A stretch of 23,352 bases of DNA from a virus: positions 1 to 23,352 of the IMG/VR virus record IMGVR_UViG_3300026097_000108; one strand, written 5' to 3'. A model generated the notes under the pieces. That model did no database searches. It had not been told where the DNA came from and saw nothing but the letters and a program-made list of their open reading frames with translations. The translations under genes and the position numbers were made by a program. Shown here in pieces: positions 20,343-23,352 of the stretch (the stretch's first letter is position 1; every line of letters begins with the position of its first letter).

Positions 20343-20367
20343 CTAAATATCCAGTGATACATTTTTG

Positions 20368-20380
20368 ACTATTTATAACG
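20368..20380 (-). promoter_or_regulatory. Late promoter CGTTATAAATAGT of the minus operon
   Basis: The minus strand carries a perfect T4-type late -10 element (TATAAATA at 20370-20377) within CGTTATAAATAGT. Exactly the same 13 bases occur on the plus strand at 20819-20831. Transcription should start about 20 bases before the gp48 ATG. This is probably the main late promoter of the whole leftward baseplate operon. It lies just three bases from the gp4 start codon on the other strand. Confidence 0.85.
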
Positions 20381-20382
20381 AC

Positions 20383-20814
20383 ATGACAAAAGCATATAAA
20401 GGAAAATACCAAGTTAAGAATCCTGAAAAATACAAAGGGAATCCTAACAATGTAATCTTTCGCAGTTCTTGGGAACTCAAGTTTTTTAACTACTGCGACA
20501 AAAATCCTGATATACTACAGTGGGCATCTGAAGAACCTTTTATGGTTGTTCCTTACAAGTCTCCTATAGACGGTAAGTGGCATCGATACTTTCCCGATGT
20601 GTGGATAAAAACTGCAAAAGATACATTTCTTATAGAAATAAAACCTTTTAAGGAAACGCAAGAACCAAAAAGGCGTTCACGTGTAACCAAAAAGTATTTA
20701 TATGAAGTTAAGACATGGGGCATAAACTCTGCGAAATGGAAAGCGGCACAAGAGTTTTGTCATGACCGTAAATGGATGTTTAAGATAATCACTGAAAAAG
20801 AAATGAACTTATAA
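20383..20814 (+). CDS. gp4: Head completion protein gp4, PD-(D/E)XK nuclease-like (143 aa)
   Basis: It matches T4 gp4 (also called gp50/65, about 150 residues) through YQVKNPEKYKGNPNNVIFRSSWELK, then SPIDGKWHRYFPDVWI, LIEIKPFKETQEP and SAKWKAAQEFC. E31, PD at 71-72 and E85-x-K87 form the E...PD...ExK pattern of TnsA-type PD-(D/E)XK nucleases. In T4 it is needed to finish filled heads before tail joining, possibly by trimming DNA. The frame can be extended to a TTG at 20365. ATG 20383 is preferred because it gives the T4-like spacing to the KNPxKY motif, although no strong ribosome binding site precedes either. No plus-strand late promoter is visible upstream. Confidence 0.9.
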   Translation: MTKAYKGKYQVKNPEKYKGNPNNVIFRSSWELKFFNYCDKNPDILQWASEEPFMVVPYKSPIDGKWHRYFPDVWIKTAKDTFLIEIKPFKETQEPKRRSRVTKKYLYEVKTWGINSAKWKAAQEFCHDRKWMFKIITEKEMNL

Positions 20815-20853: not shown

Positions 20854-21444
20854 ATGGCACAGATTTTCGACGACATTTTATTGCGAGGGGTTCGTCAGGG
20901 GCAAATTCCTGCACGTACCCAAGAAGCACGAGAATGGTTTCGTGAAAAGGCGAGACAAAACCGTTCTAATGCGAGATATCCATCAAACCTGATGAAGGGT
21001 GATGGTAAAGTCGAATCTCCTACAATTGGTCATATGTACCATTTCTTTTATGACCCAAAGAACAAGAAGACGTTACCCTACTACGATAGATTCCCTCTGA
21101 TATTCATGGTCGGTCCTGCCGACAATGGATTCTATGGGATTAACTTGCACTATCTTCCGCCTACGCTTCGTGCGGCATTGATGGACAATCTATACACGAT
21201 TACATCTAACACAAGATATGATGAAAATACGAAACTAAGAATTTCTTACGACATCTTGAAAGGTGCGTCTAAATATAAAAACTTTAAACCAACTTTTAAA
21301 CATTATCTAAGTGCAAAGGTAAAGTCTCAATTTCTTAAGATTGATGCGGTGGAGTGGGATATTGCATTGTTTCTAGATACTGCAAGATTCGAAAAGGCAT
21401 CCAGACAGAAGGTTTGGGCAGACAGCAGGAAGATGCTTACATGA
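20854..21444 (+). CDS. Conserved T4-like phage protein of unknown role (196 aa)
   Basis: The centre reads GHMYHFFYDPKNKKTLPYYD, then RFPLIFMVGP, FYGINLHYLPPTLRAALMDNLY, LRISYDILKGASKY and FKPTFKHYLSAKVKSQF, ending EWDIALFLDTARFEKASRQKVW. I recognise this as a family widespread in T4-like marine phages but cannot name a proven function. Some annotations call proteins in such positions DNA end protector (gp2), which I could not confirm. It is soluble, without signal or membrane segment. It is the first gene behind a late promoter and overlaps the gp54-like gene as ATGA, so a virion or assembly role is likely. Confidence 0.75.
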   Translation: MAQIFDDILLRGVRQGQIPARTQEAREWFREKARQNRSNARYPSNLMKGDGKVESPTIGHMYHFFYDPKNKKTLPYYDRFPLIFMVGPADNGFYGINLHYLPPTLRAALMDNLYTITSNTRYDENTKLRISYDILKGASKYKNFKPTFKHYLSAKVKSQFLKIDAVEWDIALFLDTARFEKASRQKVWADSRKMLT

Positions 21445-22181
21445 CATTTAACGTCAACAATCTTATTTCATCAATTAACAAATCTGGCATCGCAAAGAAT
21501 TCACACTTTGAGGTGCAGTTACAGGGTCACGGAAGTTCTGGTGAAGAGCGCGATTTGATGTTTCGTGCAGACACCGCAGAGATACCCGGACGTAATCTTG
21601 CGACTGCAGAGCATCGATTTACAAACTACGGACCGATAAACAAAGTTCCCTACGGTGCACAGATTTACAGCGACATCACGATTTCTTTTTTGCTGTCGGC
21701 TGACATGCGAGAAAAAGAATACTTTGAATTTTGGCAAGAAAAGATCGTTAACACAGGCGCGTTTGAACAGGGTGTTGAGGCAAAAACCTTTTCACCATTC
21801 AATGCTAAATATTTTAATGATTATGCAGGCGGCGTTATTGTTCGTCAGTACGGATCTTCTGGTGAACTTCGTTCTGTCTATACGCTGAATGAAGCCTATC
21901 CGATTAACATTGCACCCGTTGCATTGTCATGGGGAGACGACACACCATCTAAAATGAGTGTTACTTTCGCATACCGCAACTATCGAGTTGCATTTACAAT
22001 TGGAGATCAACCAAGACGTGGAATCGGTTTCGGATTCTCTATTGGTCCGGGTGGAGTTGCAGGAAATGTCAACTTACCCGGAGTCGGAAGCGTTGCGGGT
22101 ATCTTTGGCGGAATAGATGCAGTTCAAGCAACAGTCGGAGACGTAAACAGTCGAGTTGCACAAATTCGTTCATTACTTTAA
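21441..22181 (+). CDS. gp54: Tail-tube initiator gp54-like protein (246 aa)
   Basis: The fold signs are those of the tail-tube family: KNSHFEVQLQGHG, an LMFRADTAEIPGRNLAT strand-turn segment, and the late strand SWGDDTPSKMSVTFAYRNYRVAF. The last resembles the VTFAYR ending of T4 gp54 as I recall it. A Gly-rich tail (GIGFGFSIGPGGVAG..) follows. T4 gp54 is longer (320) and the tube protein gp19 shorter (163). The position between baseplate genes favours gp54, with a gp19-type tube paralogue as the alternative. The frame is open from 21354, but ATG 21441 overlaps the preceding stop as ATGA and begins the conserved region. Confidence 0.74.
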   Translation: MTFNVNNLISSINKSGIAKNSHFEVQLQGHGSSGEERDLMFRADTAEIPGRNLATAEHRFTNYGPINKVPYGAQIYSDITISFLLSADMREKEYFEFWQEKIVNTGAFEQGVEAKTFSPFNAKYFNDYAGGVIVRQYGSSGELRSVYTLNEAYPINIAPVALSWGDDTPSKMSVTFAYRNYRVAFTIGDQPRRGIGFGFSIGPGGVAGNVNLPGVGSVAGIFGGIDAVQATVGDVNSRVAQIRSLL

Positions 22182-22197
22182 TTATTGAGGTTTTATC

Positions 22198-22896
22198 ATG
22201 GCACTACCGAATATATCAACCCCTGAGTTTGTTACAAAAGTACCTTCTACAGGAGAAGAAATCAAATACCGTCCATTCTTAGTCAAAGAAGAAAAGATTC
22301 TTTTGATGGCAATGGAAGGCAAAGACCAAAATGAAATTCAGAATGCGGTTCAGAAAATTCTGAGCAACTGTATTCTTACACCAATTGAAATCAGCAAACT
22401 CGCAACTTTCGATATCGAGTATTTGTTTCTTCAGTTAAGAAGCAAGTCAGTCGGTGAAGTCATTCAGATTAAGATTGGACATAGCGACGAAAGCGAATGT
22501 ACTCACCGTTCTGAGGTATCAGTCAATGTTGATGATGTTCAAGTCAGGGGTGAGGTACAAGACGGAAAGATTATGCTAACGGATGATGTTGGTATCGTGT
22601 TGCGTTATCCAAACATGACAGACATCCAAGCAGTATCAGGTGAAGACACAGGATCGCTTTTTAAGATTGTCTATCGTTGCATCGATTATGTGTTTGACAA
22701 AGAAGAAGTGTACAACGATTTCTCAGAGACTGAAATTGAGGAATGGATGGAGACTTTGAATCAAGGACAGTTCCAAAAGATTTCAGATTTCTTTAATTCG
22801 GTGCCTCGTTTGTCACATGAAATTGAGTGGACGTGTAAACAGTGCGGACAGAAAGATAAAATTACACTAGAGGGATTACAAAGTTTTTTTACTTAA
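22198..22896 (+). CDS. gp26: Baseplate hub assembly protein gp26 (232 aa)
   Basis: The start LPNISTPEFVTKVPSTGEEIKYRPF followed by LVKEEKILLMAME is the hallmark of the T4 gp26 baseplate family. Further on are NCILTPIEISKLATFDIEYLFLQLRSKS and a C-terminal CxxC (C213, C216) with C101 and H103 upstream, suggesting a zinc-ribbon-like site. T4 gp26 is about 208 residues and is needed for hub assembly. A GAGG ribosome binding site lies ahead of the ATG. The last codons contain a slippery T run leading into the -1-frame ORF (see 22869-22896), so a longer 294-residue product may also be made. Confidence 0.88.
   Translation: MALPNISTPEFVTKVPSTGEEIKYRPFLVKEEKILLMAMEGKDQNEIQNAVQKILSNCILTPIEISKLATFDIEYLFLQLRSKSVGEVIQIKIGHSDESECTHRSEVSVNVDDVQVRGEVQDGKIMLTDDVGIVLRYPNMTDIQAVSGEDTGSLFKIVYRCIDYVFDKEEVYNDFSETEIEEWMETLNQGQFQKISDFFNSVPRLSHEIEWTCKQCGQKDKITLEGLQSFFT
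22869..22896 (+). promoter_or_regulatory. Probable programmed -1 ribosomal frameshift site
   Basis: The heptamer T TTT TTT (22884-22890) is in the right register (AGT TTT TTT ACT TAA) to let two Phe tRNAs slip back one base. A Shine-Dalgarno-like AGAGGG (22869-22874) lies nine bases upstream, as in the dnaX stimulator. The zero-frame stop follows one codon later. A -1 slip continues through Tyr-Leu-Ser into the ATG of the gp51-like frame with no stop between. A weak CATG-GTG-CATG stem follows. Confidence 0.6.
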
Positions 22897-22898
22897 GC

Positions 22899-23081
22899 AT
22901 GGTGCATGACTCCCTTGCGAATATGTATCAATTAAATTTTGCACTCATGCAACACCACAAGTATTCTTTAACCGAACTTGAAAACATGATTCCTTTTGAG
23001 CGAGATATCTATGTGACTTTGTTAAGAAATCATCTTGAAGAACAAGAAGAGAAATTAAAACAACAACAGGCAAAAAGGTAA
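22899..23081 (+). CDS. gp51: gp51-like / tail assembly chaperone T-type extension (60 aa), probably made by frameshift
   Basis: The sequence LANMYQLNFALMQHHKYSLTELENMIPFERDIYVTLLRNHLEEQEEKLKQ resembles the C-terminal part of phage tail assembly chaperones: a helical YSL.ELE..IPFERDIYV motif with an acidic-basic tail. The position after gp26 is that of T4 gene 51. It lies in the -1 frame relative to gp26, and its ATG is two bases past the gp26 stop without a ribosome binding site. Expression as a gp26 fusion by frameshift is therefore more likely than independent initiation. T4 gp51 is much longer (249), so the name is positional. Confidence 0.65.
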   Translation: MVHDSLANMYQLNFALMQHHKYSLTELENMIPFERDIYVTLLRNHLEEQEEKLKQQQAKR

Positions 23082-23152: not shown

Positions 23153-23352
23153 ATGACTATTTATCATACACACCATATCGTTCCAAAACACGCAGGCGGA
23201 ACAGACGACCCTTCAAATTTGGTTCAACTCACAGTAGAAGAACATGCGGAAGCACATCTAAAACTTTATAAAAAGTATAATAGATGGCAAGATAAAGTTG
23301 CTTGGCAAAGTCTTTCGGGTCAAATAACTTCTGATAAAGCAAGACGTATAGC
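23153..23352 (+). CDS. HNH homing-type endonuclease, N-terminal part, cut by window edge
   Basis: An ATG at 23153, eight bases after AAGGAG, opens a frame that stays open to the right edge (66 codons). Residues 5-36 read HTHHIVPKHAGGTDDPSNLVQ and then LTVEEHAEAH: the H...N...H pattern of the Cys-less HNH nucleases common in T4-like phages. It continues with LYKKYNRWQDKVAWQSLSGQI and the start of what may be a DNA-binding repeat region. Such genes usually act as free-standing homing endonucleases that cut rival phage genomes near their own site and so spread. Its place right after gp51, inside a run of structural genes, is typical of an inserted homing gene. Confidence 0.85.
   Translation, partial: MTIYHTHHIVPKHAGGTDDPSNLVQLTVEEHAEAHLKLYKKYNRWQDKVAWQSLSGQITSDKARRI

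Follow-up and report, generated by a model that had tools for sequence, protein, structure and literature searches.

Conserved signals for probable programmed −1 frameshifting at the gp26–gp51 junction of marine T4-like phages

Is the short open reading frame that follows gp26 in marine T4-like phages, and that is conventionally named gene 51 in them, a gene in its own right, or is it the C-terminal end of a longer protein made when ribosomes slip back one base near the end of gp26? The locus that raises this question lies in a 23,352-nucleotide stretch of viral DNA (IMG/VR record IMGVR_UViG_3300026097_000108, positions 1 to 23,352; called the window below), and its features are listed in Table 1.

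Table 1. Features at and around the gp26 junction in the window
Feature	Coordinates	Strand	Basis and remarks
gp26, putative short tail assembly chaperone (TAC-N)	22198..22896	+	232 aa; stop TAA 22894-22896; PF12322 T4_baseplate E 1.7e-64, 217.9 bits (cut-off 24.5 bits); phrog_150 baseplate hub, E 1.7e-68
Shine-Dalgarno-like AGAGGG	22869..22874	+	9 nt upstream of the heptamer; proposed to stimulate the shift, with a geometry like that of dnaX
Slippery heptamer T TTT TTT	22884..22890	+	gp26 register
Predicted −1 frame extension (gp51-like, TAC-C)	22890..23081	+	63 aa beyond gp26 Phe231; stop 23079-23081; phrog_634 'baseplate hub assembly catalyst', E 3.4e-28
ORF with ATG 22899	22899..23081	+	usual annotation in relatives is gene 51; taken here to belong to the −1 extension
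Tail tube-like protein (gp19 family)	21441..22181	+	directly upstream of gp26; phrog_45 E 3e-30, PF23849 E 6e-11
HNH homing endonuclease fragment	23153..23352	+	phrog_655 E 2e-15, PF01844 HNH E 6e-5; runs off window

The gp26 junction and its slippery heptamer

The 3′ end of gp26 reads CAA AGT TTT TTT ACT TAA, with the heptamer in the gp26 register (agT TTT TTT) and a single ACT codon between it and the stop, as the original prediction had described it. The AGAGGG that was said to stand nine bases upstream is at that distance, and the −1 frame, which was claimed to run without a stop into the downstream open reading frame, reads TAC TTA AGC ATG GTG CAT ... past the slip and remains open to the end of that frame. 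The product sizes proposed earlier, 232 residues for gp26 and 294 for a fusion of gp26 with a gp51-like extension, are confirmed in the sequence (231 + 63 residues for the fusion), and the predicted fusion product crosses the junction as ...LQSFFYLSMVHDSLANMYQ.... The extension was correctly called gp51-like (Table 1). The ATG of the downstream frame lies 2 nt past the gp26 TAA and has no Shine-Dalgarno core before it, again in agreement with what had been claimed.

The order of the genes around this junction is consistent with that of tail assembly chaperones (TACs): in the relatives described below it is tail tube, gp26, extension, an ORF of about 107 aa and then a long ORF, and a tape measure gene is annotated downstream in phages HTVC008M and Cr30, while a weak tape-measure match is present in the relative L004. 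The window ends without a tape measure gene, and the homing endonuclease fragment stands at its expected place. Elsewhere in the window, the gene at 20365–20814, which immediately precedes the DNA end protector gene, encodes a protein that matches the TnsA-like endonuclease N-terminal domain (PF08722, E 8e-21); its position makes a head completion protein of the T4 gp4 type possible.

IMG/VR was scanned with gp26, which yielded 80 relatives of 38–65% amino-acid identity; in 79 of them the gp26 stop codon is on the contig. Each of these 79 has a T TTT TTT or T TTT TTC heptamer in register at a distance of 7 to 31 nt upstream of the stop, followed by a −1 frame that is open for 55–66 aa (or until the contig ends), so that the original prediction stands up to comparison of the junction across relatives. 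The opposite arrangement, with no slippery run and a good ribosome-binding site before the downstream ATG, was absent in every relative examined. All 61 junctions in a reduced set of loci (61 including the window, used for the codon and stop counts) have the slippery form. Of the 360 Phe-Phe pairs that long ORFs of these contigs contain at other places, only 49 have it, and elsewhere in gp26 of the 61 loci it occurs in register only 15 times in 14,058 codons. Although such counts share ancestry, chance retention of the heptamer is untenable because the relatives are so diverged; the signal is confirmed as real and very strongly conserved, far beyond chance. The named phages that have both the heptamer and the −1 extension are S-PM2, HTVC008M, Aeh1, Va3 (KVP40-like), Cr30, pf16, Milchi and IC12; of those examined, the heptamer is absent from T4, Aeromonas phage 31 and RB43, which have separate 26 and 51 genes, and from K5lambda5 and D532 (Ackermannviridae-type).

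These comparisons also bear on two ways in which such a junction might arise without ribosomal slippage. One is a sequencing error, or the decay of a gene that a mutation has split; in its favour, single-base indels in T runs are a common type of error, but the stop, heptamer and −1 frame recur in the 79 other contigs and in isolates from other sequencing groups, and the extension is under constraint at the protein level (below); we regard this explanation as already refuted by conservation, and its probability as negligible. Alternatively, the −1 product could come from transcriptional slippage, in which RNA polymerase inserts an extra base on the T run. The homopolymer (7 T in the window and 8 in a few relatives) would suit this mechanism, whereas T TTT TTC, with only 6 T, is present in 26 of 76 sequences, and both the codon register and an upstream Shine-Dalgarno-like element at a fixed distance, which are features of ribosomal slippage, are kept. 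T runs of 6–7 are generally short for transcriptional slippage, and we consider it extremely unlikely here.

The −1 extension and the element upstream of the slip site

Within 55 codons past the heptamer the −1 frame has no stops at all in the 61 loci, versus 421 and 312 in the other two frames, and substitutions in the −1 frame are distributed over codon positions 1, 2 and 3 as 710, 254 and 1622, which is a coding pattern. Such a frame could still be a gene 51 apart from gp26, with translation starting at an ATG of its own or through termination-reinitiation at the gp26 stop, which is how cyanophage and pelagiphage records present it (S-PM2 and similar records annotate gp51 in this way). The closeness of ATG 22899 to the gp26 stop would fit that explanation, as would the presence of an ATG within the first 10 extension codons in 25 of 61 loci, but that ATG is missing in the other 36, and 24 loci have neither ATG, GTG nor TTG there. 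None of the 25 relatives that do have the ATG has a Shine-Dalgarno core before it, while the control, the start of gp26 itself, has one in 56 of 57. The Met at 22899 in the window is the fourth residue of the extension; this position is conserved as hydrophobic, with Leu in 42 of the 61 loci and Met in the remaining 19, and the residues before and around the supposed gene 51 start are also under constraint. A separate gene would moreover leave the conservation of xxT TTT TTY in 79 of 79 relatives unexplained, and we judge it very unlikely. Since the relatives lack a ribosome-binding site and most lack the ATG, the downstream frame does not appear to be a gene of its own, and the 'gene' is best read as the C-terminal domain of the predicted frameshift product. 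Low-level reinitiation in the window phage, via its ATG 2 nt past the gp26 stop, is possible. Single-sequence structure prediction of the extension alone gave three helices (pTM 0.45), which is too weak for a structure search.

The Leu-Glu-Gly codons before the heptamer are chosen so as to spell GGAGGG, and the distance to the heptamer is constant: 9 nt separate it from the end of GAGGG in 29 of 61 loci, and 10 nt from the end of GGAGG in 22 of 61. The Glu codon at the element is GAG in 31 of 45 cases (24% elsewhere, p = 4e-10), the Gly codon is GGA or GGG in 43 of 57 (42% elsewhere, p = 2e-6) and the Leu codon ends in G in 28 of 44 (27% elsewhere, p = 1e-6), where these p values ignore shared ancestry. 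Of the 61 loci, 53 have a Shine-Dalgarno-like core, versus about 10% of control positions, and the calculated energy of its duplex with the anti-Shine-Dalgarno sequence is stronger than in synonymous shuffles (mean z −1.39 ± 0.18; control +0.15 ± 0.08); the AGAGGG of the window is only of average strength (z = −0.56). Synonymous selection thus acts on a Shine-Dalgarno-like GGAGGG that stands 9 nt ahead of the heptamer, and this element is a putative stimulator of the shift. No description of such a stimulator for the TAC frameshift of T4-like phages was found in the papers searched, which cover the study by Vladimirov et al. (below) through two papers that cite it.

Downstream of the heptamer the mean folding z is about −1.3 versus −0.5 in controls, and RNAalifold found no conserved downstream RNA structure; an 8-bp stem (alignment columns 17–24/40–47) has 81% of cells paired and only one pair that clearly covaries. 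A stem of up to 10 bp, starting 6 nt past the heptamer, is possible at 22897–22950 of the window, and the stems at this position differ among relatives, with no consensus structure. A longer downstream stem seen in the window was no better than shuffles.

Taken with the conservation of the heptamer, these observations support the original −1 frameshift interpretation, and we conclude from sequence comparison that the locus in the window is very probably the chaperone gene of a marine T4-like phage, with two products that arise by programmed −1 ribosomal frameshifting. The majority of ribosomes would read gp26 to its own stop and make the 232-aa TAC-N. A fraction would move back by one base at T TTT TTT, probably with the aid of pairing between the AGAGGG 9 nt upstream and 16S rRNA, and go on to 23081 to make a 294-aa TAC-NC. 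If the two forms act as lambda gpG and gpGT do, the tape measure protein would be covered by the N-terminal domain that they have in common; the long form, which is rare, would use its helical C-terminal extension to bring in tail tube subunits, and both would have left by the time the virion is complete. We infer the occurrence of frameshifting, its efficiency, the role of the Shine-Dalgarno-like element and the chaperone function.

Relation to T4 genes 26 and 51 and to other chaperone systems

TAC genes of T4-like phages were identified by Vladimirov, Gautam and Davidson (2022, Virology 566:9-15), as cited in PMC12846349 and PMC10274946; according to these citing papers, TAC-N genes of T4-like phages are known to carry poly-T slippery sequences (PMC12846349), and in some T4-like phages frameshifting is replaced by a pair of genes, one short and one a long fusion (PMC10274946). 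As far as these accounts convey it, the idea of a frameshifted chaperone in T4-like phages is not new, its core having been published in 2022. What is added here is the breadth across marine phages, the Shine-Dalgarno-like element and the Ackermannviridae case (below). In agreement with the accounts in the citing papers, the 2022 study reportedly finds the shift kept in several groups of T4-like phages, with 26 and 51 used in T4.

The original prediction held that T4-type gp26 and gp51 are normally treated as separate genes. They are indeed separate in T4, where they lie on opposite strands, but a correction is needed: the two would be paralogues that give the short and long forms, because T4 gp26 (208 aa) matches the core only and T4 gp51 (249 aa) consists of the core (PF12322 E 4e-52) plus a C-terminal domain that is the same as the −1 extension. 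In an unrooted tree of 32 cores, which has long branches, the copies of 26 and 51 from T4, Aeromonas phage 31 and RB43 cluster apart from all frameshift-type genes (support 96/94), as predicted if a single 26/51 duplication occurred in the lineage of these three phages. The phages studied here share with T4-like gp26/gp51 TACs a common gene family (PF12322, phrog_150, phrog_634) and a common logic of short and long forms, and differ from T4, Aeromonas phage 31 and RB43 in that one gene with a −1 shift would yield both. In RB43 (L094:3001-4294) the 51-like and 26-like genes are in tandem on one strand, whereas the T4 pair is divergent. Matches of phrog_150 to the extension were considered as natural in-frame fusions and set aside, since this profile likewise aligns with T4 gp51 along its entire length (13–280 of 282) and may simply contain T4-type gp51.

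T4 gp51 is needed for assembly but is not part of the particle, and both it and gp26 are tabulated as hub assembly chaperones (PMC3004832). The T4 baseplate hub 'catalyst' gp51 and 'hub subunit' gp26 would be the two forms of one chaperone system. Cyanophage gp51 has been described as about 20% of the usual length, without about 200 N-terminal residues of T4 gp51, and Aeh1 has been reported to have no gp51 (PMC3037559). A separate gene 51 accounts poorly for the first of these observations; frameshifting would explain it because the missing part is gp26, which supplies those residues when it is read through the shift. The apparent loss in Aeh1 would be due to an extension that is present after gp26 and unannotated (L085:3001-3141, in the −1 frame past T TTT TTC). 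Thus, in the marine and Aeh1/KVP40-like phages examined, 'gene 51' would not be a gene.

The original prediction also linked gp26/gp51 to the lambda G/GT class of chaperones, and this holds for arrangement and mechanism; no sequence homology to G/GT was detectable, and the fold resembles that of a solved chaperone structure only weakly. In lambda a −1 shift near the end of gene G gives a short product and a minor extended product, GT (PMC5009743). The lambda gene stands beside the tail tube gene and ahead of the tape measure gene; here too the gene adjoins the tail tube gene, and a tape measure gene is annotated downstream in HTVC008M and Cr30. In contrast, the slip site here is poly-T, the core is a 232-aa protein predicted to be alpha/beta and the phage is contractile-tailed. 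The predicted core model (pLDDT 88.6) is alpha/beta, and among the PDB matches listed Foldseek gave the highest probabilities to chains of the HK97 tail assembly chaperone 2ob9 (0.30 and 0.28), at weak E values of 2.0–4.0; likeness of the core fold to the HK97 TAC is suggestive only. No classical TAC family is among the Pfam or PHROG matches, and a PDB sequence search gave no match to E 1.

In the E. coli dnaX gene the slippery heptamer is A AAA AAG, with a Shine-Dalgarno-like element about 10 nt before it and a strong hairpin after it. The junction described here resembles dnaX in its Shine-Dalgarno-like element upstream of a slippery heptamer, and differs in that the heptamer is T TTT TTY and no conserved hairpin was found. 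It is also like the TAC genes of Vandenendeviridae and Andersonviridae (PMC12846349) in having a conserved T-rich −1 site and a stop-free −1 frame between TAC-N and the tape measure gene, although those are other phage families and their motif is GTTTTT.

Extensions that follow gp26 without a heptamer

In Ackermannviridae, gp26-like genes (18 loci; L091:3001-3960 and L095-L112) are followed by a −1 frame of 49–53 aa with the gp51-like motif YSIFEI..MPWHLD, which has no stops in 14 distinct sequences. Its substitutions by codon position are 46, 24 and 161, and the third position dominates even before the GTG or ATG codons; mostly there is no start codon ahead of the conserved part of the extension. 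No X XXY YYZ heptamer is present in the 18 loci, where the junction is GAR ATT TTC ATY TAA. Because a gp51-like coding −1 frame is kept without a heptamer, a non-canonical −1 shift is implied, and the Ackermannviridae chaperone gene is a candidate for one; no description of it was found in the literature searched, which again does not include the 2022 study. It is quite possible, if on balance slightly doubtful, that a selected internal Shine-Dalgarno element stimulates the shift of T4-like phages in the manner of dnaX, and that phages have arrived at the two-protein arrangement in three or more ways: a canonical shift, a non-canonical shift at GAR ATT TTC ATY TAA, and gene duplication as in T4.

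K5lambda5 and Vibrio phage D532 have neither the heptamer nor a separate 51. In D532 (L092:2983-3895) a 58-aa −1 ORF that has only a marginal match to the gp51-like profile follows gp26, and the junction is TCA CTT TTC AAG TAATGG, in which an ATG overlaps the gp26 stop and could allow reinitiation.
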